The notes below the pieces were generated by a model. That model saw nothing but the letters and a program-made list of their open reading frames with translations. It searched no databases and was not told the DNA's origin. Shown one piece after another: positions 8,660 to 29,744 of a stretch of 30,196 bases of DNA; position 1 is the first letter of the stretch; each line of letters begins with the position of its first letter. The position numbers were made by a program, and so were the translations under genes. Source of the DNA: a virus; the IMG/VR virus record IMGVR_UViG_3300037452_000283, positions 1 to 30,196 of that record. One strand, 5' to 3'.

Positions 8660-8662
8660 GCC

Positions 8663-10296: not shown

Positions 10297-10305
10297 TAGG
10301 AGCCC

Positions 10306-10941: not shown

Positions 10942-10946
10942 CGACC

Positions 10947-13277: not shown

Positions 13278-13414
13278 AATGGAAATTCCAATGGTATCGG
13301 TTGACCGGCGACCGCGCGTGGTGGAGCTTCGCCCTCTGGCATGGCCCCAACCACAGTTGGCATCTCAATCTGCATCTCACGTGGCGGGCGCTCGCGATCA
13401 CGGTCTCTCGCTAA
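13274..13414 (+). CDS. Trp/His-rich 46-residue protein
   Basis: A short gene in a GTGA overlap encoding 46 residues, seven of them Trp (KWKFQWYRLTGDRAWWSFAL, then HGPNHSWHLNLHLTW). Small Trp-rich beta proteins of this style occur in many phages. It ends one base before the next ATG. Function unknown. Confidence 0.6.
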   Translation: MKWKFQWYRLTGDRAWWSFALWHGPNHSWHLNLHLTWRALAITVSR

Positions 13415-13415
13415 T

Positions 13416-14433: not shown

Positions 14434-14662
14434 GCACCTCGCCACGATCGGCCGGCTGACGGTCTGGGACCTGAGCGATGCGCCGGATACCCGGCCCGCC
14501 TTGCGGCTCGTGGGTAAGTCGTTGGCGCAGTCGGAAGTGTTGGAACTTGATGACTGCGTCGAATTGGCTCGTCTCTTGGTGAAGTTCGCCGCCAAACATG
14601 GATGGGGATCGGATGAGGATCGTCGGCGCATCATCGCGTGGGCACAGGTGAAAAAGGCGTGA
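14426..14662 (+). CDS. Hypothetical small protein
   Basis: A 78-residue protein: a beta-rich start (ATIGRLTVWDLSDAPDTRPA) and a helical end (DDCVELARLLVKFAAKHGW). It overlaps its neighbours by 8 bases upstream and 4 bases (GTGA) downstream. Function unknown. Confidence 0.6.
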   Translation: MARHLATIGRLTVWDLSDAPDTRPALRLVGKSLAQSEVLELDDCVELARLLVKFAAKHGWGSDEDRRRIIAWAQVKKA

Positions 14663-14781
14663 GCGATGGCTCTGACAAGGGCGATCTCTGGGAAGGCATC
14701 GGCTGCTTGCTCATCAGCCTCGGGATCGCGGCTATCATCCTGGCTATGACGTACTGCATTCAGCACGCGGGGCACGTATGA
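14659..14781 (+). CDS. Tiny single-pass membrane protein (40 residues)
   Basis: A GTG-started gene fitted exactly between a GTGA and an ATGA overlap. After 12 polar residues comes one hydrophobic helix (IGCLLISLGIAAIILAMTY) and a short QHAGHV tail. The two overlaps and the clean helix support it in spite of its size. Function unknown. Confidence 0.6.
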   Translation: MSDGSDKGDLWEGIGCLLISLGIAAIILAMTYCIQHAGHV

Positions 14782-14996
14782 GAACGCTGTATCTGGCCGA
14801 CGCGCGCCAGTTGAAGTGCAACGAACCCGGATGCACGCACCGTGACTGCCGGATCTTTCTCAAGCAGCGATGCCATCCAAAGGCCGCGACGATGGCATAC
14901 GTCGACACTGAGTTGGGCGAGATCTCGATCATCTGCGCCCGGTGCGACCAGGGAATCGCGAGATTCGCCATCGCCCCCACACCGCCCCAGCCATGA
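14778..14996 (+). CDS. Cys/His-rich small zinc-binding protein
   Basis: A 72-residue protein with many potential metal ligands (CNEPGCTHRDC, then RCHPKAA and ICARC). This would fit one or two zinc sites. Starts and ends in ATGA overlaps. Probably a nucleic-acid or protein adaptor; function unknown. Confidence 0.65.
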   Translation: MRTLYLADARQLKCNEPGCTHRDCRIFLKQRCHPKAATMAYVDTELGEISIICARCDQGIARFAIAPTPPQP

Positions 14997-15151
14997 AGTA
15001 CCGCGCCACGCTCACCATCGAAACGCGCGTCAGCTATACCGATCTCGCCCCCGTCGTTGACCCTTCTCGGTCTACCCCCACAGGTTTGATTTTCTCATGT
15101 CCCAGCAACCCGCGTTGCCAGACGCTGCCGCCTTCCGCGAGATGTGCTTAA
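14993..15151 (+). CDS. Hypothetical 52-residue protein with repeat-altered C-terminus
   Basis: The first 20 residues (MKYRATLTIETRVSYTDLAP) look like a normal beta strand pair. Reverse repeat copy 10 then encodes VVDPSRSTP and the frame continues for another 22 residues into the next gene. The tail looks like unplanned read-through, as if insertion of the element moved the stop. ATGA overlap at the start. Confidence 0.5.
   Translation: MKYRATLTIETRVSYTDLAPVVDPSRSTPTGLIFSCPSNPRCQTLPPSARCA
15056..15078 (-). repeat. Dispersed palindromic element, copy 10 (reverse)
   Basis: Reverse copy ending 18 nt before the ATG at 15097. The minus-strand core is GACCGAGAAGGGTC, preceded by one change in the GGGGTG arm. 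Confidence 0.9.
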
Positions 15152-15372
15152 AGGCGAACGACATGTCGCAGCAGGCGCAGTTGATGCTCGAAATCTCAGA
15201 TGAGAAAGCCGGCTACTTCATCGCCCAGTTGCCGAACAAGTTCGCGTTAAAGCCGGTGGTCGTCTTCTTGGATGCGGCGGCGTTAGAACTGGCATGCGCC
15301 AACTGGCTCATCACGAGAAACAAGCTCGCGCAGCAGATGGAAGCCACGCTCGGGCAGAAAGCGGAGGCCTGA
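15097..15372 (+). CDS. Hypothetical helical protein
   Basis: A 91-residue protein (AAFREMCLKANDMSQQAQLM, then ALELACANWLITRNKLAQQM). It lies just upstream of the 450-residue protein with one base between, so they may be co-translated. Family unknown. Confidence 0.65.
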   Translation: MSQQPALPDAAAFREMCLKANDMSQQAQLMLEISDEKAGYFIAQLPNKFALKPVVVFLDAAALELACANWLITRNKLAQQMEATLGQKAEA

Positions 15373-15373
15373 G

Positions 15374-16726
15374 ATGCCACGAAAACGGGCCGTCAAAGTG
15401 GGGTCGGTGCCTGACGGGGGCGGGGTAACGGTCACCGTCGCGCCTGAGACGGAACCAGAGACGGAGTCCCCGACAGCGGAAGAAAGGGCGGCCGATGCGG
15501 AGCTCGGCGCCATGGACGAGGCGAATCCGCGCGCGGCGTACGTCATTCTGTGGCGGGCCAACCGACGCACCGGCCAGAAGTCCCGCATTGGGAAGTTCGA
15601 TGCGAACACGGTCGATGGCGACTGGGTGACTGAGGAGTTCGGCGGCGGGAAGTTCTACGGCCAGAAGTACGCGCCCAGCAAACACGGGGGGTTTCAGTAC
15701 AAGGGCTCCGTCACGTTCGACATCGACGAGACGGTCTACCCGCCGAAACTCCCGTCGTGGTCACCCGCCGCGGCGAAGGCAGCAACAACCCCGGCCCCGA
15801 ATGGCGATGGCAAGTCCGCGGGCCGCCTGGGCGGTGGGGATCTCATCGAAGCCGGCATCCTGCAGCTCTTCCAAGCCTCGCAGGGCATGCAGCAGATGCA
15901 GACGCAGATGATGATGGCGTTCATCGAGAAGATGTCCCACACGCCGGAGCGGAAAGAGACGGACTTGATGCCGCTCATCGTCGCGCTGATCGAGAAGCGG
16001 AAAGACCCGATGGAGATCGCGCGCGAGCTCTACGAGACGACCGCCAAGGCGACGGCCCGTGCACCAGAACCGCCGAGCGCCATGCTCGAGGCGATGTCGC
16101 TCTACGACCGGATCGAGGCTCGTGTCCGACGCCATGCGCCAGGGACGCCCGCGGCTGATCCTACGGACGACTCGATCTTCGGGTTCTTGAAAGCGACGGC
16201 GCCGGATCTCTTGCGGCTCTACGAGAAGCAACTCGACGTACGGGCGGATCTCGTGCGCCGTGGCCTTGCACCAGCGACGGGCCAGCCCGCGAACGGAGCT
16301 GCGCCCGGAGCGCCGAACGGTCAGCCCTCGTTACCCCCGCCGCCTCCCGCTCCCACGATGTACGTCCCGCCCGAGGCCGTCGCATCCGCCGCGGGTGTCA
16401 CTCCAGCAGCCGTCGTTACCGGTCCCGTCACCGATCCCTCTATGCCCATCTGGGCGCCGTTCTTAAAGCCGTTCGTCGGTGAGTTTCTGGACTACGCCAA
16501 GCGGGGGAAAGACCCGAAGGCGTGCGCCGACTTGCTGCTGACACGGCTCGAGCTCAACGACCAGTTGGAAGTGGCCGCGCCGCTCATCGACGACTCGACG
16601 TTTGGCGCGCAGTTCGTCAAAGCCTTTCCGGAGTTTCAGCCGTATGCGGTGTGGGTGGAGATGATGCTACAAGCGGGACGAGAGGATCTGAGCCAGACGG
16701 ATGAGGGTGAGGACGAAAGTGAATGA
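15374..16726 (+). CDS. Large protein of unknown function (450 residues)
   Basis: The largest protein of the window. Residues about 50-120 form a compact alpha/beta unit with Gly-rich strand (ILWRANRRTGQKSRIGKFDA, then TEEFGGGKFYGQKY and VTFDIDE). After an Ala/Pro linker comes a Met/Gln-rich helix (QASQGMQQMQTQMMMAFIEK), charged helices, a Pro-rich linker (SLPPPPPAP) and a helical C-terminal domain with an acidic end. NGDGKSAG is too short a match to call a Walker A motif. The architecture suits a scaffold, core or packaging-accessory protein and it sits last before the methylase, but no family is identified. Confidence 0.75.
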   Translation: MPRKRAVKVGSVPDGGGVTVTVAPETEPETESPTAEERAADAELGAMDEANPRAAYVILWRANRRTGQKSRIGKFDANTVDGDWVTEEFGGGKFYGQKYAPSKHGGFQYKGSVTFDIDETVYPPKLPSWSPAAAKAATTPAPNGDGKSAGRLGGGDLIEAGILQLFQASQGMQQMQTQMMMAFIEKMSHTPERKETDLMPLIVALIEKRKDPMEIARELYETTAKATARAPEPPSAMLEAMSLYDRIEARVRRHAPGTPAADPTDDSIFGFLKATAPDLLRLYEKQLDVRADLVRRGLAPATGQPANGAAPGAPNGQPSLPPPPPAPTMYVPPEAVASAAGVTPAAVVTGPVTDPSMPIWAPFLKPFVGEFLDYAKRGKDPKACADLLLTRLELNDQLEVAAPLIDDSTFGAQFVKAFPEFQPYAVWVEMMLQAGREDLSQTDEGEDESE

Positions 16727-17102
16727 ACAACTAGGGGTGGACCGAGAACGATCAACGACAACGATCCCCGGCGTCAGCAACTCCGTGTTCTTCCGGACGA
16801 AGCGCGCGCGATCGGGCTTTTACGGCGATGAACCCCTCATCTTCGGCGAGCACACCGCGAACGGCCCCCGCGTTTTCTTTAACCGGGAGGGTGTGTTATC
16901 AGCCTGGGGCGGACGCTGGGACGGCGGGCGGTTTCGGATCTCGTTCGACATCTCGTTCGATACGCAACACTATCTGACCGGCGGCCCCGGGCTCGCGATG
17001 CACGCGTGGTTCTGGCGCTATCACTTCGCGGCGGCGCTCAGGCTTAGCCCGCGCGCACCCGTCGTTGACCGTTCTCGGTCCACCCCCGATGTCTCGTCTT
17101 GA
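16719..17102 (+). CDS. Hypothetical Trp-rich protein bracketed by inverted elements
   Basis: A 127-residue protein whose residues 5-14 (LGVDRERSTT) come from forward copy 11 and whose end (VVDRSRSTPDVSS) comes from reverse copy 12. The middle is beta-rich and aromatic (FRTKRARSGFYGDEPLIFGE, LSAWGGRWDGGRFRISFDIS, MHAWFWRYHFAAAL), reminiscent of the small Trp-rich proteins at 1619 and 13274. GTG 16719 is required because ATG 16723 in another frame meets a stop at once. This is one of the two single-gene cassettes in the window. Confidence 0.65.
   Translation: MNEQLGVDRERSTTTIPGVSNSVFFRTKRARSGFYGDEPLIFGEHTANGPRVFFNREGVLSAWGGRWDGGRFRISFDISFDTQHYLTGGPGLAMHAWFWRYHFAAALRLSPRAPVVDRSRSTPDVSS
16734..16756 (+). 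repeat. Dispersed palindromic element, copy 11 (forward)
   Basis: Forward copy with one change in the second arm (GACCGAGAACGATC), starting 15 nt after the first base of the GTG start codon at 16719. Confidence 0.9.
17064..17086 (-). repeat. Dispersed palindromic element, copy 12 (reverse)
   Basis: Reverse copy with perfect minus-strand core GACCGAGAACGGTC, 40 nt before the GTG of the methylase gene. It is the last copy; none is found in the 13 kb that follow. Confidence 0.9.
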
Positions 17103-18030: not shown

Positions 18031-18573
18031 GTGCCCGCCCCCCGCGTTCTCTCCCACGACTGGATCGGCGATGATGACTTGGGCCGGATGCGGACCTTGG
18101 GGAAGATGCGAAACCTCGTCCGATGGGGTTCTCGGAATCGCTACGTCCGTACACTCACCGCTAGCGTTTGTAGTACAGAACGCACCCGATCATCAGTAGA
18201 TCTCGAGCACCGCGCCCGCCAGATCCGCGCCTGGTGTGAACGCTCGATCGACTTCGAGAACGACCCCCCAGGCATAGAACTGCTGTACCAGCCGGAGTAC
18301 TTGGCACGGCTCGCCCTGGCGGGTCTTCGCATCCGGTGCGACTGCGATGACGTGGCTACGTTCTCAGGTGCTATCGCGTACTCGGTGGGACTATCTGTCC
18401 AGTTCCGAGCTGTCTCGTTTCTTGACAAACGAGCCCCCTTCGCTCATGTCTTCACGGAGTTAGGCGTTCCGGCACATCTGGGCGGCGGCGGCCCAGTGGT
18501 CGACGTGGACATCACGCGAGCACAACAGGGATTACCGCCGTGCATCTCAAGGGAGATGGTCATCAAGGTGTAG
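18031..18573 (+). CDS. Transglutaminase-like (papain-fold) protein
   Basis: A 180-residue protein. RCDCDDVATFSGAIAYSVG at 102-120 matches the catalytic-Cys block of the transglutaminase-like superfamily (Cys105 followed by DD). AHVFTEL at 138-144 supplies the His, and VVDVDIT at 156-162 supplies an Asp at the right spacing. Bacterial members are mostly Cys proteases or crosslinkers. In phages such genes often lie near structural genes; here it heads the virion module, so protein crosslinking, proteolytic maturation or peptidoglycan-related cleavage are all possible. GTG start; the first 40 residues are basic and of unknown role. Confidence 0.65.
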   Translation: MPAPRVLSHDWIGDDDLGRMRTLGKMRNLVRWGSRNRYVRTLTASVCSTERTRSSVDLEHRARQIRAWCERSIDFENDPPGIELLYQPEYLARLALAGLRIRCDCDDVATFSGAIAYSVGLSVQFRAVSFLDKRAPFAHVFTELGVPAHLGGGGPVVDVDITRAQQGLPPCISREMVIKV

Positions 18574-18607
18574 GCTCGCGGCTTTCTAGAGGCCCTGAGC
18601 GGGTCGT

Positions 18608-19120
18608 GTGCCGATAGTCGGCCGGCGGACCTTCCGCTCCCGTGGCATGGGTGCCGGCGTCGCGTTTCAAGCGCCCGTCATCATGCGCTCGACGATGCAA
18701 GCCCCGCGCGCGCCGAGCGGCGCACCGACCAAGCCTGTGATCACGGTCCCCACGAAGCCCGTCACCATCTCGATGCCGGGCGCCCCAAAGCTCACGATCC
18801 CGGTGCCGGTCATGCCCGCGCCGAAGCCGGTGGTGACTGGGACGAGGACGCAGGCCCCGACGCCCGCAGCTCCGCCCGCGTTGCCGCCGACTTATGTGAA
18901 TTACCAGATCCCGCCGTCTTCTGGGCCTATCCTCACGGGCCCGATCTCGGGGCCTGGCATCACGGATACGACTGGAGCTCCTCCCGCGCCGCCGCCGGTC
19001 ACCGTTGACAACAGCGGCGGTGGTGGTGGTGGGCCGGTGAGCGTCGCGCCTGCGGCGCAGCCCTTTCCCTGGCTCACGATCCTGGCTATTGCCGGCGGTC
19101 TCTACTTGGTGACCCGATGA
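18608..19120 (+). CDS. Pro-rich protein with C-terminal membrane anchor
   Basis: A 170-residue protein: basic N-terminus (VGRRTFRSRGMGAG), about 120 residues of Pro/Thr/Ala-rich sequence with repeated KPV units (TKPVITVPTKPVTISMPGAP), a Gly run, and a final transmembrane helix (FPWLTILAIAGGLYLVTR). It shares the layout of basic start, extended middle and C-terminal anchor with the next two proteins. I infer a virion membrane or spike-linker protein. GTG start; no clear ribosome site. Confidence 0.7.
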   Translation: MPIVGRRTFRSRGMGAGVAFQAPVIMRSTMQAPRAPSGAPTKPVITVPTKPVTISMPGAPKLTIPVPVMPAPKPVVTGTRTQAPTPAAPPALPPTYVNYQIPPSSGPILTGPISGPGITDTTGAPPAPPPVTVDNSGGGGGGPVSVAPAAQPFPWLTILAIAGGLYLVTR

Positions 19121-19130
19121 AGGCGACGTC

Positions 19131-19922
19131 ATGACGATGCACCAGATGGTGGTCTCGCGCCCCGTCGCGCGGAGAGGGTTCCTACGCGGCCGGCACATGG
19201 GCGCCTACCCGATGATGCGCGGGATGGGACAGGGGTTCGACTTCACGAGCCTCTTCAGCCCGACGAGCAGCAGCTCGTCATCGTCCAGCTCGACTGCCGC
19301 GCTCACGACGGCCGGAAACGCGGCCGGTGCGGCGATCGGCGTGCCTGGCGCGGGCTCGATCGCGTCGGGCGTCGTGTCGACGTTGTCGTCCATCTTCGGC
19401 GGGAACCCGGCGACGGGCGCGGATGCGGAACGGCAAGCGCACGTGTATTCGATCTACGAGACCGCGATGACGTCTCCGGGCTCCGCGGCCTCGGTCGATG
19501 CGGTGATCGAGCTCTACACGATGGCCGGCAATCTTTTCGACCCGGTCAACAACGTTCAGCAGAACAACCCGCAAGCGACAAGGACGTACAGCCAGCAAGC
19601 CTTGCAGATGTTGGCGACGCAGGGCTGGCAAAACGTGAATAGCTTGAAGCCCTCGTATACGGGTGTAGCCGCATCGGGCGTCGTGTACGGGACGGACCCG
19701 ACGACGGGCCAGGCGGTGATCGTCGGGCAGAACCCGATCGCGCCGGCGGGACTCTCGGGGCTTTTCTCGTCTCCCTTGTTCCTGCCCGCGGTGCTGATCG
19801 GCGGATTCTTCCTGCTGCGAGGCTCCAAGGCGTCGGCAAGTGCCACCGTGCATCACACGACCTCGAGTAACCCGCGGCGGCGTCGTCGGCACAACCGGAA
19901 ACGCCGGAGAGCCACGCGATGA
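19131..19922 (+). CDS. Putative virion membrane protein with Arg-rich tail
   Basis: A 263-residue protein. The N-terminus is basic with GAYPMMRGMGQGFDF at about 24-38, then a run of Ser, a Gly/Ala-rich segment, a helical domain (VYSIYETAMTSPGSAASVDA), one transmembrane helix (LFLPAVLIGGFFLLRG, about 217-232) and a tail of about 18 residues nearly all Arg, Lys, His and Asn (RRRRRHNRKRRRATR). By the positive-inside logic the tail would face DNA. It looks paralogous in layout to the next gene, which starts in an ATGA overlap. I infer an internal-membrane, DNA-contacting virion protein; no named family. Confidence 0.75.
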   Translation: MTMHQMVVSRPVARRGFLRGRHMGAYPMMRGMGQGFDFTSLFSPTSSSSSSSSSTAALTTAGNAAGAAIGVPGAGSIASGVVSTLSSIFGGNPATGADAERQAHVYSIYETAMTSPGSAASVDAVIELYTMAGNLFDPVNNVQQNNPQATRTYSQQALQMLATQGWQNVNSLKPSYTGVAASGVVYGTDPTTGQAVIVGQNPIAPAGLSGLFSSPLFLPAVLIGGFFLLRGSKASASATVHHTTSSNPRRRRRHNRKRRRATR

Positions 19923-20425
19923 CGATGGTGGCGCCGTACACGCAGGGCGCGCTTTCGGGATTCGGGCGTCGACGCAAGGCCATGATGCGCGCGTACCCGA
20001 GATTCATGGGACAAAATCCATTCACTGGCCTCATTAATTGGGCAGAGAATGTTGCGGGCGGGTTACCGAGCAACGCGCCGGAAGCCGGCGGCGGCTACGT
20101 CGTCACTGGCACGAATGGGGATGGCTCGACGAACATCAACTACACCGATTCTAGTGGTAATCAGGGATCACTGACGGTGCCAGCCGGTGTAGATCCAGCC
20201 ACCTATATCGCGACGCAGACGGGCGCCGGTACGACCCCTCCCATCATCCCGCCGGGCATCGTGCCCAGCGTCCCGTCGTGGGTCTACTGGGCGGTGGGTG
20301 GCGTACTCGTGCTCGTGCTCCTCGGGTATTCGGGCGTGGGCAAGCTGATCCCCGCATCGCGGCCGTCCGTCGCGACGAACTATCGCCGTCGTCATAACCG
20401 CCGGCGTAACCGGTCGAGGCGCTGA
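19919..20425 (+). CDS. Putative virion membrane protein with Arg-rich tail
   Basis: A 168-residue protein with the same order of parts as its upstream neighbour: start MTM, Arg cluster (GFGRRRKAMMRAYPRFMGQN), a small beta-rich domain (YVVTGTNGDGSTNINYTDSS), a transmembrane helix (SWVYWAVGGVLVLVLLGYSG) and a final Arg/Asn-rich tail (YRRRHNRRRNRSRR). The shared RAYP/MGQ motif argues for common descent or a common assembly signal. Probably in the same membrane layer. ATGA overlap at the start. Confidence 0.75.
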   Translation: MTMVAPYTQGALSGFGRRRKAMMRAYPRFMGQNPFTGLINWAENVAGGLPSNAPEAGGGYVVTGTNGDGSTNINYTDSSGNQGSLTVPAGVDPATYIATQTGAGTTPPIIPPGIVPSVPSWVYWAVGGVLVLVLLGYSGVGKLIPASRPSVATNYRRRHNRRRNRSRR

Positions 20426-20428
20426 CGT

Positions 20429-20728
20429 GTGCGCTCCCGCTCAGCAGCTCGTCCAGTGCGCGTGCGAAACCCGGCGCTCGTCGTCGTCGGCAATCCCCCA
20501 CGCGGCAAGGGCATCATCATCTCCCACAACGTCCAAGCCGTCCTCTATCTCCGAGATGATGATGGCGTGCCCTACGTCCACGCCTTCGGCTACGGCGAGC
20601 ACGAAGAACCGCCCGAGCCGAAAGAACGAGGGGACACGCTGATGCTCCGCGGACTGAAAGACGACACGGGCGTCGAAGCCGTGCTCTTGTCGGATGGATC
20701 CATCCTCTTGCGTGGACCGGTCCGGTGA
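20429..20728 (+). CDS. Hypothetical protein sharing an NPALVV motif with the next gene
   Basis: A 99-residue protein with a basic start (MRSRSAARPVRVRNP) that leads into NPALVVVGNPPRGK. The nearly identical motif NPALVVFGNRPRK recurs at the start of the next protein. The rest is a beta-rich, acidic domain (AVLYLRDDDGVPYVHAFGYG, VEAVLLSDGSILLRG). GTG start at 20429, one base before the next gene's ATG at its end. I infer a virion or core component because of the shared motif; function unknown. Confidence 0.65.
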   Translation: MRSRSAARPVRVRNPALVVVGNPPRGKGIIISHNVQAVLYLRDDDGVPYVHAFGYGEHEEPPEPKERGDTLMLRGLKDDTGVEAVLLSDGSILLRGPVR

Positions 20729-20729
20729 C

Positions 20730-21725
20730 ATGGCCTCTCGCGTCCCGCTCTGGCTCACCGATGAGACCGGCCGCTCCTGGGTCAATAACCCCGCGCTCGT
20801 CGTCTTCGGCAATCGTCCGCGAAAGTCCCGTTCACCTTCCCGCCGGAACTCTCTAATGGCCAAACGTCGCCGCAAAAGGAACAAGCTCCACGGCGCCGCG
20901 CTCGCCGCCCACCAGCGGAAGGCGAACCGTGGCAAGCGCCGTCGCACCAACCGCCGCCGCGCCCACGCGCGGACATCTGCGCGCACCGCGCCCGCGCGCC
21001 GCTCGAATCGTCGTCGCGCGCACACCCGTCGTCGCACGAACGTCTCTCACTCCCGCCGGAGGGTTTCCGTGGCTACCCGTCGCCGCCGTCGTTCCAACTC
21101 GCATCACGCAACGCACAAGCGGCGCCGTCGCCACAATGCGTCGTCGCACCGCCGGGTGCATGCTCGGACCCGTCGCCGGAACGCCTATCCGGTCGCCTTG
21201 AACCGGAAGCGCCGCCACAACCGTCGTCGCCGTCGGAACCCGGATTTCATGGGGATGGGCAAGGGGATCGTCAAGGACGTGACGTCGACGGTCATGAACG
21301 GCGCCGTGGACTCGCTCTTCGGTGCCGGCGGGTGGCTCGCCGCCCAGGCAGGCAGCTCGCTCATCCCGATCACCGACAGCTCGACCACCGAGATCTTGGG
21401 GCTGATGCCGATCGACACGCTGAAGCGGCTCGGTACGAGCGTCTTGCTCGGTGTCGTCGCCAAGAAGATGCGCGTCTCGGATGTGCACGCCCGCATGCTC
21501 GTGATGGGCGGGTTCCTGAACACCGTGCTGTCGGTCGTCGAGAGCTTGATCCCGACGTCGCTCGCGGGGAACTTGGGCCTCTATCCCGGCGCGCCGCAGA
21601 TGGCGGGCATGGGTGACGCCTTCGTCGCCTCAGGGTTCTTCCCACCGCTCCCCGGCGGCACGCACGGCGACTATCACGGCGATCCGGCGTTCATGGGCGC
21701 CTACTACCAGGGCGGCGGGCACTAG
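20730..21725 (+). CDS. Protamine-like Arg-rich protein fused to hydrophobic domain
   Basis: A 331-residue protein. Residues 29-170 are extremely basic (clusters such as AKRRRKRNKLHG, RRRTNRRRAHARTSARTA, NRKRRHNRRRRRNP), like a protamine or viral core protein that condenses DNA. Residues 171-331 are hydrophobic and Gly-rich (VTSTVMNGAVDSLFGAGGWL, LKRLGTSVLLGVVAKKM, VVESLIPTSLAGNLGLYPGA), suggesting membrane or capsid association. An internal ATG at 20856 (MAKRRRKR) could give a shorter form, but the N-terminal NPALVV motif shared with the upstream gene favours 20730. I infer a protein tethering genome to membrane or shell. Confidence 0.75.
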   Translation: MASRVPLWLTDETGRSWVNNPALVVFGNRPRKSRSPSRRNSLMAKRRRKRNKLHGAALAAHQRKANRGKRRRTNRRRAHARTSARTAPARRSNRRRAHTRRRTNVSHSRRRVSVATRRRRRSNSHHATHKRRRRHNASSHRRVHARTRRRNAYPVALNRKRRHNRRRRRNPDFMGMGKGIVKDVTSTVMNGAVDSLFGAGGWLAAQAGSSLIPITDSSTTEILGLMPIDTLKRLGTSVLLGVVAKKMRVSDVHARMLVMGGFLNTVLSVVESLIPTSLAGNLGLYPGAPQMAGMGDAFVASGFFPPLPGGTHGDYHGDPAFMGAYYQGGGH

Positions 21726-21783
21726 GCCCGGCCTGACATCAATCGGATACTGACTCCCTCTCTCACTCAGACTCTCGCCTCCT

Positions 21784-22428
21784 ATGTCACTCCGCATCGT
21801 TGTTCAGGCCCTGCCGCAGGCCGTCCTGGTCGGAAGATCAACCCCACTTTTTAGTGCACAAGGAGAAACTATTCCGTGGGTATTCTACGATACCCAGTCG
21901 TACGCCGCGGCCGGAACGGTCTCCAACCTCAACTATTTCCAGACGGTGCAGAGCGACAAGACGCTCGGCAATCTGGACCAGGGCGGCCAGCTCCCGGCCG
22001 GGTTCTTCCACCAGATCAACAGCTTCCAGTTCGATCCGCTGTCGCTCCCGGCCATCGCGGCCGCAGGTGCGGCGGGCACGACGCTGGCCGGCCCGGCGCA
22101 GGATCTGGCCATCCTCTTCTCGACGGCCCGTGCGCTGTTTCAGTTCACGATCTCGAGCAAGCTGTACGTGCAGGTCCCGCTCACGTATCTCCACGCCTCG
22201 GGGTATCCCGTGGCGGTGCTGTCGGGTGCGTTCACGGCCGCCACGCAGGCCCAGTTCGTGGGCAACAGCTTCCCGGATGGGGATTACTACATCGGGAACA
22301 ACATCATCATCCCGCCCCAGCAGGCGTTCCTGGCGAGCATCATCTTCGCCGGCGCGCCGAACGCGATCAACGCAGCTACCAACCTGCGTATCGGCATGCC
22401 GGGCGCGCTGACCCGCCGCGTGTTGTAA
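21784..22428 (+). CDS. Putative major capsid protein, jelly-roll-like
   Basis: A 214-residue protein, strongly beta-patterned with few charges. Strand-like stretches include LRIVVQALPQAVLVG, ALFQFTISSKLYVQVPLTYL and YYIGNNIIIPPQQAFLASII. GNLDQGGQLPAGFFHQINSF resembles a motif I associate with small jelly-roll capsid proteins of uncultured viruses, but I cannot confirm it by search. Size fits single-jelly-roll capsomers such as those of P23-77 and SH1. A 58-nt pyrimidine-rich leader without Shine-Dalgarno precedes ATG 21784, and a strong hairpin follows the stop, both consistent with a specially regulated, highly expressed gene. Confidence 0.5.
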   Translation: MSLRIVVQALPQAVLVGRSTPLFSAQGETIPWVFYDTQSYAAAGTVSNLNYFQTVQSDKTLGNLDQGGQLPAGFFHQINSFQFDPLSLPAIAAAGAAGTTLAGPAQDLAILFSTARALFQFTISSKLYVQVPLTYLHASGYPVAVLSGAFTAATQAQFVGNSFPDGDYYIGNNIIIPPQQAFLASIIFAGAPNAINAATNLRIGMPGALTRRVL

Positions 22429-22442
22429 TCGCGGGTGCAGGA

Positions 22443-22480
22443 CACGACGTGCACGGGCCCGAAGTCTCGTGCACGTCGTG
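22443..22480. promoter_or_regulatory. 13-bp perfect hairpin after the putative capsid gene
   Basis: CACGACGTGCACG (22443-22455) pairs exactly with CGTGCACGTCGTG (22468-22480) around a 12-nt loop. The loop and the 3' flank carry further complementary GGCCC/GAAGTC and GACTTCGGCC runs, allowing alternative folds. No T-tract follows, so it may be an RNA stabiliser, processing site or partial terminator between capsid genes. Confidence 0.65.
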
Positions 22481-22572
22481 GTAGGGGCCCGACTTCGGCC
22501 AGTTGTATGTGTTTTTCACATAGTCTCGCCATTCGCTTTCGTCTTTCTCTCGCGCTCTGGGCGCTGACCACT

Positions 22573-23181
22573 ATGCCGCAAGCCCCTGCTACTGGGATGT
22601 CGATCCCGCAGACCATCTCGGACTTGCTGCTGCCCGGGAACCCGTTCTTGGGCACGCTCCCGCGCAAGTATTGGTTCTGCCTGAAGAAAGCCTTCGCCTA
22701 CGGGTTCGATGCGCTGCCGCTGGCGGCCGGGGCCTCGAGCGTCCAGTTCTCGATCACGATCGACTCGGACTCGGACTTCGTCTTCATGTTGCCGACGATG
22801 ATCGTGACCGACACGACGAACCTGATCCAGAAGTCGTTCGCGCCGGCGACCGTCAACGTGAGCTCGTCCTTGAACAATCAGTTCATGTTCCAGACGGCGC
22901 GGCACGTGATGACGTTCGCGTCGATCCCCACGGTGATCGTGCCGCAGTACTTGCCGATGGCGTACATCTACCCGAAGGGGACGGTCCTCAACACCGTGCT
23001 CTCGAATCTGGACACGGTGAACGCCTACAACTACCGGTTCACCTACTGGGGGTTCAAGGCGTACACGCAGGTCCCGGCCGACTCGGGGAACGGCGACGGA
23101 TCGGGAAGCCCGAGCGACGGTTCCTCGGGGATGAGTGCCTATCCCATGATGAGGGCCTATCCGGCCTACGGGCGCCGCTAG
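22573..23181 (+). CDS. Putative second capsid or vertex protein, beta-rich
   Basis: A 202-residue protein with beta-sandwich-like patterning: SVQFSITIDSDSDFVFMLPT, HVMTFASIPTVIVPQYLPM and YNYRFTYWGFKAYTQVP. The DSDSDF turn after the first strand recalls small virion proteins of tailless viruses. The C-terminus has a Gly/Ser linker and ends in SAYPMMRAYPAYGRR, the same AYPMMR motif as the membrane protein at 19131. The frame is open upstream to 22435 but that part overlaps the hairpin; ATG 22573 is preferred. Two adjacent capsid-like genes match the two-capsomer design of sphaerolipovirus-type shells, though the fold is unproven. Confidence 0.5.
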   Translation: MPQAPATGMSIPQTISDLLLPGNPFLGTLPRKYWFCLKKAFAYGFDALPLAAGASSVQFSITIDSDSDFVFMLPTMIVTDTTNLIQKSFAPATVNVSSSLNNQFMFQTARHVMTFASIPTVIVPQYLPMAYIYPKGTVLNTVLSNLDTVNAYNYRFTYWGFKAYTQVPADSGNGDGSGSPSDGSSGMSAYPMMRAYPAYGRR

Positions 23182-23185
23182 TCCC

Positions 23186-23278
23186 GTGACGCGACGCATG
23201 CGCGCGCTCTACGTCGCCCGCTCGGTGCGGGACACGCTCTGGGAGTTGGCGATCACCGTCGTCTGCCTCGGGGTCTAA
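23186..23278 (+). CDS. Possible 30-residue peptide
   Basis: A GTG-started frame (MTRRMRALYVARSVRD then TLWELAITVVCLGV) fills the gap between two virion genes. It is basic at the start and hydrophobic at the end, like a very small membrane peptide. No ribosome site is seen; the codon use matches neighbours. Only weak support. Confidence 0.35.
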   Translation: MTRRMRALYVARSVRDTLWELAITVVCLGV

Positions 23279-23283
23279 GTCTC

Positions 23284-23979
23284 GTGGCCTTTCAGCGGAC
23301 GAGCGGATTGATCCGGCGGTTGAACCGCTCGGCGATGGCACCGCCGCAGCATCAGCGCTTCGTGCCGCCGCAGTCTATGCCGAACAACGGCGCGGCGGCC
23401 GACCCGTCCGCGTACTTGGACGAGATGATGTACCACGCCACGGCCGATGGCGTGTCGGCACCGTACGATCCGGGGAACCCCGGCGGGCCACCGAACGCGA
23501 TCCCAGCCGTCCAAGTCCACCCGGTCTGGGAGTTCCCGCCCAGCAATGCGTTTCAGTTCTACCTGAACGTCACGAGCACGCAGTCAGCGATCGGGGCGGG
23601 GACGCAGTTGCCGGCGATCATCGGTGCGCAGCTCTTGCTGCCCGAGCTCGTGTACGTGCCGCCCCCGAACATGTTCACGGTGTTGCGCCTGGCGTCCATC
23701 TTCATCGACAACCCGACGCAGGCCGAGAACGTGAGCTACATCATCCGGATCAACCAGGCGCCGGTCTCCGGGTTCACGTTTAAATTCTTCCCCCGGATTG
23801 CCGCCAACGAGTCGACTGATTTCGAGTTCGTCTTACGCGACATCCCGCAAGGCGCCCAGGTCGACATGTTGATTCAGAACAATGCGAACACGGGCCCATG
23901 GACGGTGGGGGGCGCCTTGTCGGGATGGAGTTACTTGAAGTCGGACGAGATCGCGCTCTACGGGAACGTGCGGGTGTAG
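23284..23979 (+). CDS. Putative virion protein, beta-rich
   Basis: A 231-residue protein. The first 75 residues are basic and Pro/Gln-rich (TSGLIRRLNRSAMAPPQHQR). The rest is beta-patterned (AFQFYLNVTSTQSAIGAG, MFTVLRLASIFIDNP, VSYIIRINQAPVSGFTFKFF, ESTDFEFVLRDIPQGAQVDM), suggesting another beta sandwich with an extended arm. It is the third capsid-like gene in a row and may be a vertex, spike or minor capsid protein. GTG start; function inferred from position. Confidence 0.55.
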   Translation: MAFQRTSGLIRRLNRSAMAPPQHQRFVPPQSMPNNGAAADPSAYLDEMMYHATADGVSAPYDPGNPGGPPNAIPAVQVHPVWEFPPSNAFQFYLNVTSTQSAIGAGTQLPAIIGAQLLLPELVYVPPPNMFTVLRLASIFIDNPTQAENVSYIIRINQAPVSGFTFKFFPRIAANESTDFEFVLRDIPQGAQVDMLIQNNANTGPWTVGGALSGWSYLKSDEIALYGNVRV

Positions 23980-23980
23980 C

Positions 23981-24178
23981 GTGGATTATCTCGTGGTCGT
24001 GTCGAGTCGCGCCGGGGAGATGCGGGCCGTGGCGGTCGATACGCCGGAGCATGCCGAAGATGCCGCGCTTGCCATGATGAACGACTGGCTGGATGCGGGA
24101 CCGTGGCCCGCTCGACTGGAAAGGTCGATGAAGATCCTCTCGCGTGTCGAGGGCGGTACCGTCTACCGCGAGGGCTAG
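23981..24178 (+). CDS. Hypothetical small protein
   Basis: A 65-residue protein in a strand-helix-strand layout (DYLVVVSSRAGEMRAVAVDT, EDAALAMMNDWLDAG). It sits between a virion gene and the fibre gene with no gap on either side. Role unknown; possibly a fibre assembly factor. Confidence 0.6.
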   Translation: MDYLVVVSSRAGEMRAVAVDTPEHAEDAALAMMNDWLDAGPWPARLERSMKILSRVEGGTVYREG

Positions 24179-25480
24179 ATGGCCTTCGGCACCCAGTCGG
24201 TCATCATCTCGAACGGGATCCAGGCCGGGCCGAGCTTCACGCTCGCGCAAGGACTCTTTGTCTCCGTCGTCTCGCCGGCGACCGCAAGCAGCTCCGCATC
24301 GCTTAGACTGACCGCTGGGCCCCCAGACCAGATCGAGATCGGCCCGAGCACGACCCCACACGCGACCGTCATCGGGTTCGGTGCCACGGTCCCTGTCGGC
24401 GGCGCTGGGAATCAGGTCGTCATCGGCACCGCGGCAACAACGGCCGACACGCAAGACGATGTCGTCATCGGACACGGAGCCGCGACTGGTGCCGTCAATG
24501 CGGGGAACGGATCAGTCGCGGTCGGTGTCTCGGCGACGGTCGGCGGCGCAGGCTCGAACGCAGGCGGTGGCGTCGCGATCGGGAACGCGGCCTTGGCGAA
24601 CAACGGCGTCGCGATCGGGCAGGGCGCTACATGCTTGACCGGCCAGGTCGCGGTCGGATTCGGCGCCGTAGCCGTCACGTTCGGGATCGCCGTCGGCGGG
24701 TCGGCGACCGCATCGTTCGGTGGCGGACATGGCTTGGGCTCGATCGCCATCGGCCGGAGCGCGAGTGCATCCGAATCGACCGATATCGCGATCGGCACGG
24801 GGAACGGCGGGACGGCGGGCGGTGGGGGCGGCAACATCGTCCTGGCGTCAGGCGTCGGCGGATCCGGCGCTCAGGGCCACGACTCGATCGTCATCGGCTC
24901 GTCCAGCAACAACGGCGGTGCCGCGTTGCCCGCGTCAGCCACGGCCGCCGGCATCTTCTCGACCGTCATTGGCGGCAATAGCCAAGCGCAGCACTCGGGC
25001 GCGCGGTTGCTCGGCCGAGGCCTCACCTCGACCGCCGCGAATCAAACGCTGATCGGTGGGACGGATGACCCGTGCGCCACGGTCGTGTGGGGGAACGGCG
25101 CGGTCGCCGCAGCTCCGCAGAACGTGGTCGAAGGGGTGACGGGCGGATCGGGGTTGAACGTCGGGGGCGCTTCCTACACGATCGCGGGCGGGATCGCGAC
25201 GGGCAGCGGGACGGGCGGCTCGATCATCTTCCGGACGAGCGTCGTCGCCGGGTCGAGCTCCACGCCGCAAGCGTTGGCAACCGCTCTCACGATCGACAAC
25301 ACGCAGACGGTGACGTTCGCCGTAGCACCGAAGATCACGGCGACAGTAGCGACCGGCGCGGTAACTCTGGGCGCGTTGACGAATGCGCCGGGCACGGCGA
25401 CGGCGGCATCCCCGCCGCAGGCATGGGGGGCCATCTTCATCGGTGCCACGCGCTACGTAATGCCGTTGTGGACGGCGTAA
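24179..25480 (+). CDS. YadA-like head-repeat fibre protein, putative receptor-binding
   Basis: A 433-residue Gly/Ala/Ser/Val-rich protein. From about residue 80 to 240 it carries repeats of the type VAIGxxAxA with 14-20 residue spacing (SVAVGVSATV, VAIGNAALANNGVAIGQGAT, SIAIGRSASASESTDIAIGT). This is the hallmark of the left-handed beta-roll heads of trimeric autotransporter adhesins (YadA family). No anchor domain is present, as expected for a virus fibre. The C-terminal 150 residues are also beta-rich and may trimerise. I infer a trimeric host-binding spike. ATG directly follows the upstream stop. Confidence 0.75.
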   Translation: MAFGTQSVIISNGIQAGPSFTLAQGLFVSVVSPATASSSASLRLTAGPPDQIEIGPSTTPHATVIGFGATVPVGGAGNQVVIGTAATTADTQDDVVIGHGAATGAVNAGNGSVAVGVSATVGGAGSNAGGGVAIGNAALANNGVAIGQGATCLTGQVAVGFGAVAVTFGIAVGGSATASFGGGHGLGSIAIGRSASASESTDIAIGTGNGGTAGGGGGNIVLASGVGGSGAQGHDSIVIGSSSNNGGAALPASATAAGIFSTVIGGNSQAQHSGARLLGRGLTSTAANQTLIGGTDDPCATVVWGNGAVAAAPQNVVEGVTGGSGLNVGGASYTIAGGIATGSGTGGSIIFRTSVVAGSSSTPQALATALTIDNTQTVTFAVAPKITATVATGAVTLGALTNAPGTATAASPPQAWGAIFIGATRYVMPLWTA

Positions 25481-25508
25481 CTCGTCTAGTGCGGTAAGTT
25501 CCCCTCTT

Positions 25509-26432
25509 ATGCCCTTCCCCCGTCGCCCCAGGCGGCCACCGCGGTGGGGCTACTTCATGATCCCGCAGCAGCCCTTGCCGGTCGTCATCCCGCGCGAGTC
25601 CTGCGGCAAAGGATCGGGTTCGCAGGCCGGGAATGATCTGGACCAGTTGGCGGCATCGACGACATCGATCACGTGGTCCAATCTTTCGTCGGTTCGCTAC
25701 GGAGTCACGCAAGTCGCCGGCAAGGTCTCGGCGGTCGCCGACGGCCGGACGATCAATCCCGGGTTCGGGGTCACGCAGGCGAACGGCGCCAAGCAACCGA
25801 CGATCTCGGGGTCAGGTCAAAGCCTCGTCATCGCCACGGACGGCGCCGCGACCTGTCTCGTGAGTGCCCTGCAGGCCTCGCTCGACTTAAGCCAGACGTG
25901 CATCGGCATGATGGGTGTGCTGACCCTGGTGGATCCGCCAGCGACACGCAGCACGTTCCACTTCGCGATGTCGATCTCGGTGGCGAGCAATATCCCGGGT
26001 ATGTTCCTGGCCCGCGACTCGCCCGCGATCAACCCGCAAGTGGGCGACGCCTATGTCTACTTCGACAACCAGGCCGGGTCGAACGCCTTCGTCGATCCGA
26101 TCGCCCAGGTGGCGGCCGGCTCTGAGGCGGCGGCCGGCCAGCGCACGCTCTGGGGCAAGCGCACGCTCGTCCTCATGTGGCGCACGGCGGCCAACTACTT
26201 CTGGTGCGTGCCACCGTTGCCAATCGTACAGGTGGCGGCGCCGGCGGCTTCCTCGGCCGGCAACTGCCTCTTCGCGATCGGCACGGATGGGTCGGGAACG
26301 TTGTTCGATGCGAACCAGTACCGCGCGTGGGGGACGTTCACGGCGCCGACCGTGGCCGGACCGAGTGCCGCCGACATCAAGACGATTCTAGGCTGGGCGA
26401 CCGGCAACGAGCTCTGTCTCAATGACCCGTGA
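25509..26432 (+). CDS. Lectin-like (concanavalin/LamG-type) host-contact protein
   Basis: A 307-residue protein. A Pro/Arg-rich N-terminus (RRPRRPPRWGYFM) precedes a segment SSVRYGVTQVAGKVSAVADG, then NGAKQPTISGSGQSLVIATD. This order (linker, ANGAKQPT, then a strand) is typical of concanavalin-like domains in viral and bacterial surface proteins. The C-terminal AADIKTILGWATGNELCL resembles the end of such domains. Four or more Cys may form disulfides. Position between the fibre and an esterase suggests carbohydrate binding at the virion surface. The domain call is by pattern only. Confidence 0.55.
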   Translation: MPFPRRPRRPPRWGYFMIPQQPLPVVIPRESCGKGSGSQAGNDLDQLAASTTSITWSNLSSVRYGVTQVAGKVSAVADGRTINPGFGVTQANGAKQPTISGSGQSLVIATDGAATCLVSALQASLDLSQTCIGMMGVLTLVDPPATRSTFHFAMSISVASNIPGMFLARDSPAINPQVGDAYVYFDNQAGSNAFVDPIAQVAAGSEAAAGQRTLWGKRTLVLMWRTAANYFWCVPPLPIVQVAAPAASSAGNCLFAIGTDGSGTLFDANQYRAWGTFTAPTVAGPSAADIKTILGWATGNELCLNDP

Positions 26433-26442
26433 GCGTTGAGCC

Positions 26443-27060
26443 ATGACCCTCGTCATCCACGGGATAGACTCGATCTCGTTCGGCTTCAATCTCCCCGACC
26501 GGGCATTGAACTACGCGACGATCGCCATCACGACCGCGCCGGCGTTGGGGTGGGGAGACGTGGGGACCGGGGTCCCATCGCGCACGCTCGTGCAGGCGAA
26601 CGCCGATGCGCTGACGTACCTGGGCCAGTTCGCTAGGGCTCGCAACAAGACGATCTTCGTCCTCATGGCCAGCCCCAACGATCTCGCGGCCAACCAGCTG
26701 ACCGGCCCGCAGTGCTTGACGCAGTACTCGACGTTGGTGTCGACCGTCCGCGGGTTCGTCGGAAGTCCGAAGATCATCCTATGCGACCCGTTACCGCGCA
26801 CCCTCGCCACGATGGGCGGGGGTCAGACGTTGCTCGGGTTCCAGACGGGACGCGCCACGATCCTGGCCGGGTTCAACGGCGCCACGTTCCCCGGCATCTA
26901 TGGCGATGTGCGGTGCGCATGGGGCGCTGACCCCTTCTTCGGCACCGATGGGAACGAGAACGACACCACGAAATACGGCGATGGCGTGCACCCCACGGCA
27001 CTCGTGCATTCTGCCGCCCACATGGCCGGGTACGTAACGACCGCCTTTGGCCTCATCTAG
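26443..27060 (+). CDS. SGNH/GDSL-family hydrolase, putative depolymerase or deacetylase
   Basis: A 205-residue protein with the SGNH triad motifs in order: IDSISFG at 8-14 (block I, nucleophile Ser10, the usual Gly replaced by Ile), ASPND at 76-80 (block III Asn79), and DGVHPT at 180-185 (block V, Asp180 and His183). The block II Gly may be in the GTGV stretch near 41-44. These enzymes cleave esters such as O-acetyl groups on polysaccharides. Following the fibre and lectin-like genes, the likely job is trimming host surface glycans during entry. The signal peptide is absent, consistent with a virion component. Confidence 0.75.
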   Translation: MTLVIHGIDSISFGFNLPDRALNYATIAITTAPALGWGDVGTGVPSRTLVQANADALTYLGQFARARNKTIFVLMASPNDLAANQLTGPQCLTQYSTLVSTVRGFVGSPKIILCDPLPRTLATMGGGQTLLGFQTGRATILAGFNGATFPGIYGDVRCAWGADPFFGTDGNENDTTKYGDGVHPTALVHSAAHMAGYVTTAFGLI

Positions 27061-27071
27061 GAGCCACTGTT

Positions 27072-27923
27072 ATGCCGGATCCCGCCCGCCAAGCCGCCGC
27101 GACGCTCATGAACCCGTTGACGTTGAACGGGGGCCGAGCGCCAACCTTCGTCACCGGCAACTACTCGATACGGAAGGACGATGGGTGGATCGTCGTCATC
27201 CCCCAGATCGCTACGGGCACGATCACCATCCAGCTTCCGGCCGACCCGGACCCCGGAGCGACCTACTTCGTGAGCCGGGGACTCATCTTCGCCGCGGCCG
27301 AGACCGGGCCCGTCGACGTCGTGGTCGTCGGGAATCCACAGCAGGCGGCATCGGGTGGGTATGACACTATCTACGGGATCGGCGCCAACCTCGGCGGCTA
27401 CCACATCAGCCGCTTCAACGAGACCGTGGGGTTCGGCGTCTCGACGCAGCAGCCGAACTTCGCGCCGCACCCCTACACGGACTGGTTCGCCTTTGGTGGC
27501 CTGGGGTTCGAGTCCTACAGCGCGGCGTTTGTGCCCAACTTGGCCGGGGCGGTCACCGTACCGCTCGCGGGGTTCGCATTGGGGAACGGCGGCGGGGATG
27601 GCGGGCATCCCCGGAGCTTATACGGCGTCTCGCTCGTGGTGAGCCCGCCCCTTTCGGCCGGCAACTTGAAGGTGTCCCCGCGGTTCAACGGCGTCGCGGC
27701 CGTGCCCGACTTGCTGGACTTGAACTCCGCCACGCAGCCGGCCGCGTCCCGCTTCACAGCCGGGAGCCCGATCGCGGGAACGGGGGTCGACTTCTTTACG
27801 GCGCCACCGGGGTCCTATCTCATGACGCCGCCGGCGGCCGGTGGGATCTTGGATGTGGTGATCACGGGCTCCGGCGGCGCGGCCGGTCCCACGGCTGGGG
27901 TCGTGACGGCTCTCGTATTCTGA
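27072..27923 (+). CDS. Hypothetical beta-rich surface protein
   Basis: A 283-residue Gly-rich, beta-patterned protein (TGNYSIRKDDGWIVVIPQIA, GTITIQLPADPDPGATYFVS, GNLKVSPRFNGVAAVP, ILDVVITGSGGAAG). The opening strand plus TGTITIQLP is like the start of many phage and virus fibre-end domains. It belongs to the host-contact run by position. No named family. Confidence 0.65.
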   Translation: MPDPARQAAATLMNPLTLNGGRAPTFVTGNYSIRKDDGWIVVIPQIATGTITIQLPADPDPGATYFVSRGLIFAAAETGPVDVVVVGNPQQAASGGYDTIYGIGANLGGYHISRFNETVGFGVSTQQPNFAPHPYTDWFAFGGLGFESYSAAFVPNLAGAVTVPLAGFALGNGGGDGGHPRSLYGVSLVVSPPLSAGNLKVSPRFNGVAAVPDLLDLNSATQPAASRFTAGSPIAGTGVDFFTAPPGSYLMTPPAAGGILDVVITGSGGAAGPTAGVVTALVF

Positions 27924-27947
27924 CCCGCTTGAGGTAGATTCGACTCT

Positions 27948-28241
27948 ATGACGAAAGACGAACAGGTGGTCTTAGACGTCCTCGAGCACAACGCGAAGCA
28001 GTGGGATGCAACCGACCCAACGCAGGCGCAGACGTTCCGCGATGCCGCGCGCGTACTCAAGGATGTGACGGAAGGACGGCTCGTCACGGTGTCAGCCGCC
28101 CCGGCGGTCGATCCCGCCACGGTGCTCGTCCCAGACCACACGCCGGCGGCGACGACGAGCACAGATCCCGCGGATGCGCCCGCGCCCCCGTCCGTCCACA
28201 CGCCCACCGACTACGACGCGGAGACGCCCGCCCATGGGTAA
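27948..28241 (+). CDS. Hypothetical protein
   Basis: A 97-residue acidic protein with a helical N-terminal part (KDEQVVLDVLEHNAKQWDAT, FRDAARVLKDVTEG) and a long Ala/Thr/Pro-rich tail. GAGGTAG about 11 nt before ATG 27948 is a plausible ribosome site. The next gene starts 8 bases before its stop. Function unknown. Confidence 0.65.
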   Translation: MTKDEQVVLDVLEHNAKQWDATDPTQAQTFRDAARVLKDVTEGRLVTVSAAPAVDPATVLVPDHTPAATTSTDPADAPAPPSVHTPTDYDAETPAHG

Positions 28242-28692
28242 CCTGGCCCAGGTCCAGACGTCGGAAGTCGTCCCCACGACGGCCACGCCGGCGACGCTCC
28301 CCGATACCCTCGTAGCGGTCGAGCCGGTCGATCTCCCGTTCAACAACTACCGGGGCTTCACGGTCCCGAACGTGGCGAGCGTCTTCACCCCGGACCTCTC
28401 TCAGGGGAGTGGCCAGTTCGTCGTCGGGATCGCGGGCGCGTTCACGATCGCCAATCCGATCAACCCCCCGGCCTCGAACCCCAACAGCGGGTTCGAGATG
28501 ATCATCTGCATCGTCAACTCGACGGGCGGTGCGTTGGGAGCGATCACGGCCGGCACGCAGTACAAGCTCGTGGGCGGCGCCTTCCCGATCGTCGCCGCCG
28601 GCACGCGGGTCTACGTATCCTTCACGAATATCGGGACACAGGCGGCGCCCGTGTACAGCGAGACAGGACGGGGCGCGGGTACGGCCAACTGA
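28234..28692 (+). CDS. Hypothetical beta-rich protein, putative virion component
   Basis: A 152-residue protein, Gly/Thr/Pro-rich and beta-patterned (GQFVVGIAGAFTIANPINPP, FEMIICIVNSTGGALGAITA, GTRVYVSFTNIG). A single-domain beta sandwich is likely. Position at the end of the virion module suggests a spike tip or minor capsid protein. ATG 28234 has an upstream in-frame extension to 28174 that I reject as overlap. Confidence 0.6.
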   Translation: MGNLAQVQTSEVVPTTATPATLPDTLVAVEPVDLPFNNYRGFTVPNVASVFTPDLSQGSGQFVVGIAGAFTIANPINPPASNPNSGFEMIICIVNSTGGALGAITAGTQYKLVGGAFPIVAAGTRVYVSFTNIGTQAAPVYSETGRGAGTAN

Positions 28693-28865: not shown

Positions 28866-29080
28866 TGACAGACGCGCCGCGCGATTTCCAAGCGGACTTT
28901 TGCCTGCCCGCCATCAAGGGGCTGAATCGGAAAGAAGCGGCGCGCGTGGGGCTCGCGCTCGACTGCGCGATCGCTTTCGGTGTGTTGGAGTACGCCGAGG
29001 GCAACACATCGTTGCAGGATCTGAGGGCCGTGCGCGAGCTGTACGCCGAGAAAGTCGCCCGCCTGAATGGCGCCCACTGA
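28865..29080 (+). CDS. Hypothetical small helical protein
   Basis: A 71-residue protein (FQADFCLPAIKGLNRKEAAR, LQDLRAVRELYAEKVARL). It starts in a TGATG overlap and lies just before the endolysin. Family unknown. Confidence 0.65.
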   Translation: MTDAPRDFQADFCLPAIKGLNRKEAARVGLALDCAIAFGVLEYAEGNTSLQDLRAVRELYAEKVARLNGAH

Positions 29081-29081
29081 G

Positions 29082-29744
29082 ATGCCCACGGGGATTGACG
29101 TCGCCGGCGATGTGACCGAGCAGCTCCCGCAGTTGAAAGCGGCTGGCATCTCGTTCGTCTTCCGTTACCTCGCGACCTTCACTCACATCAAGGGCAAGAT
29201 CCTGACGCTCGCCGAAGCGCAGGCGATCAGTCGCGCGGGATTGAAGATCGGGACGGTGTGGGAGAACGGAGAGCCCACCACAGCGGAGTACTTCACGACC
29301 GACCAGGGGAAGGCAGATGCGCGGGCGGCCGTGGCTCTCGCCCGCGCGATCGGCCAACCAGCCCTCACCCCGATCTATTTCGCGGTCGACTGCGATCTCT
29401 CGTTCGATGCGATCAGCTCGCGACTCTTCAATTATTTCGTCGGCATCAAGTCAACGAGCGGCATCGATGAGATGGGATTCCCCGGGGATTACCACGTCGG
29501 CGTCTACGGGTCGGGCTTCGTGTGCGAGAAGATGACGAACTGGGCCCTCGCCTCGTACTCGTGGCTCGCCGGCGCGAAAGACTGGGAGGGCTACGATGAC
29601 TTCCTCTCTCGCGCCACCATCGTCCAAGGGCCGTTACCGAAAGCACTCTTGAACATCGGACTGCCGGAGAGTGACTCGGACGGAGACATCGCCACGACGG
29701 ATGACTACGGCGGGTTTCAGGTGTCGGTCCCGACAACGGCGTGA
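29082..29744 (+). CDS. DUF1906-type glycoside-hydrolase-like endolysin
   Basis: A 220-residue protein matching the DUF1906 (Rv2525c-like, GH25-related TIM barrel) pattern: GIDVAGD at the start, AGISFVFRYL, LTLAEAQAISRAGLKIGTVW, IYFAVDCDLSF, YHVGVYGSGFVCEKM and DWEGYDDFLSRATIVQG. Asp6 and the acidic VDCD residues would form the active-site cluster. Such proteins act on peptidoglycan in phage and bacterial contexts. No signal peptide is seen, so export would need the nearby holin. ATG 29082 gives a start directly before GID; ATG 29067 would add five residues. The lysis block follows the virion module, as usual. Confidence 0.8.
   Translation: MPTGIDVAGDVTEQLPQLKAAGISFVFRYLATFTHIKGKILTLAEAQAISRAGLKIGTVWENGEPTTAEYFTTDQGKADARAAVALARAIGQPALTPIYFAVDCDLSFDAISSRLFNYFVGIKSTSGIDEMGFPGDYHVGVYGSGFVCEKMTNWALASYSWLAGAKDWEGYDDFLSRATIVQGPLPKALLNIGLPESDSDGDIATTDDYGGFQVSVPTTA

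Follow-up and report, generated by a model that had tools for sequence, protein, structure and literature searches.

The question raised by this locus is what kind of particle is built by a virus in whose genome no tail gene can be recognised, and how DNA enters that particle. The window analysed here is the whole stretch of 30,196 nucleotides, corresponding to a single IMG/VR virus record, and all of its plausible genes lie on the plus strand (genes are referred to below by their first position). The answer that we favour, with rather more confidence than doubt, is that the region 18031–28692 forms the virion module of a dsDNA phage that has no tail and infects Gemmatimonadota. Its particle would probably be icosahedral, have an internal membrane and assemble without a packaging motor along the steps described below. 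The icosahedral shape, the capsid roles, the virion membrane and motor-free packaging are features that we infer.

Both ends of the window carry the same 127-bp direct repeat. Its closest relative (the sibling) is a 31,786-bp IMG/VR contig with the same gene order and a different start point, and the Arg-rich gene of the sibling could be completed across that contig's own 50-bp end repeat. The two assemblies were opened at different points, which supports a genome of 30–32 kb that is either circular or circularly permuted, in agreement with the complete circular genome described in the first-pass annotation; possibly the 127 bp shared by the ends are an overlap left by assembly, in which case the unit would be about 30,069 bp long. 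The only matches in scans of IMG/VR were the sibling and phage SSIP-1. A third relative was found with a profile of 21784 among 395 Gemmatimonadota genomes, where a single full-length homologue (32% identity, E 4e-25) is encoded on the 13,244-bp contig L034. This contig encodes homologues of 20429, of the Arg-rich protein and of 21784, 22573 and 23284, the 22573 homologue being broken up by undetermined bases; fibre-like genes and an endolysin follow. The order of the virion block is thus retained in the window, the sibling and L034, and dN is lower than dS in every block gene compared between window and sibling (14 genes compared). Judged by such sequence comparisons, the genes of the block are confirmed as real and conserved. 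Further genome sets beyond the 395 gave no convincing match; weak genome matches from other searches were discarded as chance, one inspected case lying opposite rpoB. No plasmid matching the window was found, nor were any Rfam families or tRNAs in it.

The features of Caudoviricetes, namely the terminase large subunit and the portal, HK97 capsid and tail proteins, were all missing when 66 proteins of the window and 50 of the sibling were scanned with profiles, as was any packaging ATPase of the FtsK/HerA type. The families that these scans did find were a recombinase, a methyltransferase, a DUF3987 helicase, HTH proteins and an endolysin, together with a GDSL hydrolase matched in the window proteins and not in those of the sibling. 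Walker A motif scans of both genomes likewise gave no credible candidate outside the DUF3987 helicase (8663–9967), which is the only P-loop protein, has a deviant P-loop of its own and shares about 91% identity with its sibling homologue. One PHROG match of the sibling bears the label "terminase small subunit" in a table that names no member; as most of its neighbours in the table are HNH and the sibling encodes a clear HNH protein, the match most likely belongs to that protein (L006:5583-5927). The earlier reading that terminase, portal and tail genes cannot be recognised, and the HMM search for terminase and HK97 folds that it called for, therefore come out the same way in window and sibling. 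It had spoken of the terminase, and the absence of any recognisable packaging motor goes a step further. Given that neither tail nor terminase genes occur in two complete genomes, a tailless virus is well supported. As far as can be told from sequence, the unusual and new element is that a virus of 30 kb has no packaging motor that can be recognised.

The block opens with three proteins that are predicted to be anchored in a membrane by their C-termini. The Pro-rich protein 18608 (18608–19120), which belongs to no family, has a hydrophobic anchor at its extreme C-terminus, and hydropathy and tail composition mark 19131 (19131–19922; 70% identity to the sibling) and 19919 (19919–20425; 68%) as C-terminally anchored membrane proteins with Arg-rich tails. 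All three anchors are also present in the sibling homologues, so the three membrane proteins noted in the first-pass annotation stand, and so does its Arg-rich protein: the first 190 residues of 20694 (20694–21725) include 56 Arg and 9 Lys, and the C-terminal half of this protein is hydrophobic and homologous in L034 (z 6.6). We regard 20694 as a candidate DNA-condensing core protein. Upstream of it lies a small protein with the motifs NPALVVVGNPP and SHNVQA (20429–20728), whose L034 homologue scores z 13.9 against shuffles. Overall, a lipid membrane in the virion is plausible; membrane anchors alone are no proof of one. Moreover, the Arg tails behind the anchors could merely follow the positive-inside rule, which would weaken the case for a role in tethering the genome.

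No Pfam or PHROG family was found in the conserved virion-like block. Here lie the three adjacent genes for proteins of 202–231 residues on which the earlier annotation had built its capsid proposal; their existence is confirmed by sibling homologues under purifying selection and by the same order in L034. The candidate major capsid protein, 21784 (21784–22428; 214 aa), is 97% identical in the sibling, and its dN of 0.035 (dS 0.545, dN/dS 0.06) is the lowest of the 14 genes, the helicase having 0.061. Such constraint, the strongest in the set compared, fits a major capsid protein and is no proof of one. The second candidate capsid protein, 22573 (22573–23181; 202 aa), has 85% identity to the sibling, a dN/dS of 0.19 and homologous pieces in L034 (z 6.9 and 5.7), while the third candidate virion protein, 23284 (23284–23979; 231 aa), possibly a minor capsid protein, penton or spike base, shows 81% identity, a dN/dS of 0.28 and an L034 homologue at z 12.6. 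Between the first two genes, a plus-strand RNA hairpin (22443–22480; folding z -3.55) is identical in the sibling inside a diverged spacer. Mean strand propensity exceeds helix propensity in all three proteins, which is a weak indicator. In none of them was a convincing membrane anchor seen, paralogy among them is undetectable by sequence, and they matched neither SSIP-1 gp45/gp46 nor solved structures. AlphaFold2 gave a pLDDT of 26.9 when the three proteins were read as one chain through their stops together with sibling rows, and of 28.0 for 21784 aligned with its sibling homologue and with gp45 and gp46; both alignments, from which L034 rows were left out, contained too few sequences, and values this low speak neither for nor against jelly rolls. 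By eye gp45 and gp46 resemble 21784, but a kinship was rejected after shuffling (p 0.47 and 0.07) and an equally negative profile comparison.

Downstream, 24179 (24179–25480; 80% identity to the sibling) is a repeat protein resembling the YadA head (YadA_head E 0.017, below the Pfam cut-off) and probably a fibre or spike. A repeat protein of a similar kind is encoded in L034. It is followed by a possible receptor-binding protein (25509–26432) and a GDSL/SGNH-type hydrolase (26443–27060; Lipase_GDSL_2 3e-5, below the curated cut-off), both lacking a sibling match, by a probable fibre or adhesin (27072–27923) that has two tandem copies in the sibling, and by a small conserved protein, probably of the virion (28174–28692, with a likely start at about 28234; 86% identity). 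The endolysin gene at 29067–29744 fits release by lysis.

Just upstream of the block, a transglutaminase-like protein (18031–18573) provides the link to SSIP-1. Compared with 50,697 phage records, it matched solely the structural protein gp34 of that phage (E 1e-4, two copies of one genome), and a profile comparison of the two by hhalign gave a probability of 95.8%. The candidate triad Cys105/His139/Asp158 of 18031 is invariant in three sequences, and gp34 itself matches Pfam Transglut_core (8.9e-7). Weak matches of gp34 to two unrelated records, among them a pleomorphic virus of Geoglobus, indicate that the family is not confined to tailless membrane phages.

With regard to the host, L034 sits within a Gemmatimonadota genome; as the contig shows no obvious host genes, this phylum link rests on genome binning. 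A 23-bp motif occurs in 13 copies in the window, against none expected. In a scan covering 84,980 species, each represented by a single genome, it turned up in two, and both of these are Gemmatimonadota; it is also present in two IMG/VR contigs that, as read from their sequence, resemble tailed phages with terminase. L034 and the motif together point, if indirectly, to Gemmatimonadota, a common soil phylum, and the host is probably a soil bacterium of this group. In a narrow literature search, we found no description of a tailless virus group linked to it.

Such evidence induces us to propose the following scenario. The proteins 18608, 19131 and 19919 would sit in a membrane, and the genome would be bound, condensed and tied to that membrane by 20694 together with the Arg-rich tails of 19131 and 19919. 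A shell made mainly of 21784, with 22573 and 23284 as further shell or vertex proteins, would then form round this nucleoprotein-membrane core with no virus-encoded packaging motor, the products of 24179–27923 would serve as spikes or fibres binding the host, and the endolysin would free the progeny. Of the earlier view of a tailless, possibly membrane-containing virus of a new family, the tailless and undescribed parts hold, given the lack of tail and terminase genes and of known families, and the membrane stays at plausible. The virus is probably a member of a tailless group that has not been described before and has an unusual mode of DNA packaging. A bolder version, which we put forward tentatively and would not be surprised to see fail, is that the window represents a family, not described so far, of tailless dsDNA viruses that infect bacteria and have genomes of about 30 kb. 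Arg-rich and Arg-tailed membrane proteins would pack the genome into a nucleoprotein-membrane core, a shell would assemble round this core without a motor, and the family would be to bacteria what the portogloboviruses are to archaea.

Other scenarios have to be weighed against motor-free assembly. The virus might be tailless and still have its DNA pumped in by an ATPase, be it the DUF3987 protein, a motor that escaped recognition or an FtsK/HerA enzyme of the host. In favour, the DUF3987 protein is the sole P-loop protein and strongly conserved in the sibling, and in SSIP-1 gp40 is predicted to be a packaging ATPase (PMC4124505); however, the DUF3987 protein matches helicase and primase families and is encoded outside the virion block, and no gp40-like gene was seen, so that we consider this scenario unlikely. 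We find it quite improbable that the virion is a non-icosahedral membrane particle (pleomorphic, spindle-shaped or plasmavirus-like), with the anchored proteins in an envelope and 21784–23284 as spikes. Several anchored proteins, the absent packaging ATPase and the weak gp34 match to the Geoglobus virus would agree with it, but the three supposed spikes have no convincing anchor, 21784 is under capsid-like constraint, and the endolysin suggests lysis and not budding.

The first-pass annotation had itself pointed to P23-77 and SH1, that is, to a lineage with two single jelly-roll capsid proteins. P23-77, SH1 and SNJ1 (Halopanivirales) indeed resemble the window in their small adjacent capsid genes (here candidates of 202–214 aa), their membrane proteins and, for SH1, genome size. 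Yet they encode the FtsK/HerA-type packaging ATPase that is missing from both window and sibling, no paralogy between 21784 and 22573 can be detected, and neither these viruses nor solved capsid proteins gave a sequence match, which makes membership highly improbable and leaves the proposed likeness without support. As for a tailed phage whose head and tail genes have diverged too far for recognition, the virion proteins without family matches do speak of large divergence, but neither genome has a P-loop protein fit for a terminase, and tailed virions do not usually contain anchored and Arg-rich proteins; we give this explanation almost no credence.

If motor-free assembly is true, the virus would test, as a bacterial dsDNA virus of 30 kb, how far such packaging scales, since the tailless precedents without an ATPase cited here are smaller: 9 kb in FLiP (PMC6260650), 7–11 kb in the Odin group (PMC5894146) and 20 kb in SPV1 (PMC8459092). 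It would also link a tailless virus group to Gemmatimonadota, and it gives SSIP-1, whose genome is hardly similar to anything in GenBank (PMC6356626), a partial relative.

By sequence evidence, and through one protein only, SSIP-1 appears to be the closest known virus. It is a tailless membrane-containing phage grouped with the two-capsid-protein viruses (PMC6356626, PMC4958249, PMC5332951), and it shares with the window a circular dsDNA genome, a tailless, membrane-containing make-up (proposed for the window from its genes) and a transglutaminase-like virion protein of the gp34 type. In both, a run of structural proteins (candidates in the window) follows, of about 210–260 aa in SSIP-1, so that gp34 ... 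gp44-gp45-gp46-gp47 parallels 18031 ... 20694-21784-22573-23284 in size and order, and gp44 has, by eye, an NP-type motif similar to the window's. In contrast, the SSIP-1 genome is 43.8 kb long and encodes gp40, whereas DUF3987 is the only ATPase family in the window; the capsid candidates share no detectable sequence similarity; and gp45 and gp46 are paralogous to each other, unlike 21784 and 22573 (their capsid role is itself deduced, the record saying "structural protein"). With gp34 shared, and gp40 and capsid sequence not, the virus does not seem to be an SSIP-1-like phage, although the two may work alike.

Regarding packaging, FLiP and SPV1 are tailless and have no packaging ATPase (PMC8812541), and the same holds for viruses of the Odin group (PMC5894146). 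FLiP (Finnlakeviridae, ssDNA) and the Odin group differ from the window in their small genomes and double jelly-roll capsid proteins, and no sequence link to them was seen. SPV1 (Portogloboviridae) is likewise different, being archaeal, smaller and presumably non-lytic (PMC8459092), but it resembles the window in combining circular dsDNA with the absence of a packaging ATPase (PMC8812541). Portogloboviridae have single jelly-roll capsid proteins and a DNA-wrapping nucleocapsid protein, VP1, and the circular dsDNA of SPV1 forms a nucleoprotein surrounded by a lipid layer and by a shell built of single jelly-roll proteins (PMC8459092). Such a nucleoprotein core within lipid layer and shell is the arrangement that we suppose for the window virus, the analogy being one of mechanism.

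A 23-bp near-palindrome, GTTGACCSTTCTYGGTCYACCCC, occurs at 13 sites within 2775-17086 of the window, in both orientations and frequently about ten codons into genes; the virion half of the window has none. The same motif is present in two virus contigs with a terminase and in two Gemmatimonadota genomes, and it looks like an operator common to unrelated elements. In a Gemmatimonadota genome, the motif lies inside a gene (L013:6794-7315, minus strand) whose sequence reads like a conjugation TraF-type signal peptidase. Such a location suggests that non-phage mobile elements carry the motif too.

Directly behind the DUF3987 helicase gene (8663-9967) there is a 94-nt imperfect inverted repeat (9981-10194, 74% complementary), a candidate replication origin. 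A serine recombinase of the resolvase/invertase family is encoded at 7723-8367.

A strong hairpin (22443-22480) stands directly 3' of the candidate major capsid protein gene (21784-22428), with an identical copy in the 31.8-kb sibling genome, and possibly sets the level of capsid gene expression. Fibre region content is exchanged between the two genomes: the window (25509-27060) has a GDSL hydrolase and a 307-aa protein, and the sibling (L005:4411-5626) has a different small protein plus a paralogue, in tandem, of the probable fibre or adhesin gene 27072-27923. This exchange likely represents host-range variation.

The kind of endolysin differs between relatives, being an Rv2525c-like glycoside hydrolase in the window (29067-29744); the Gemmatimonadota contig with a divergent virion block encodes a C-terminally anchored member of another endolysin family (L034:3388-4134).

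Finally, we would like to comment on a likeness to the tailless membrane phage SSIP-1: by eye, its gp44 shares a short NPA-LVV...NP motif with the small protein encoded at 20429-20728 and the Arg-rich candidate DNA-condensing protein encoded at 20694-21725.
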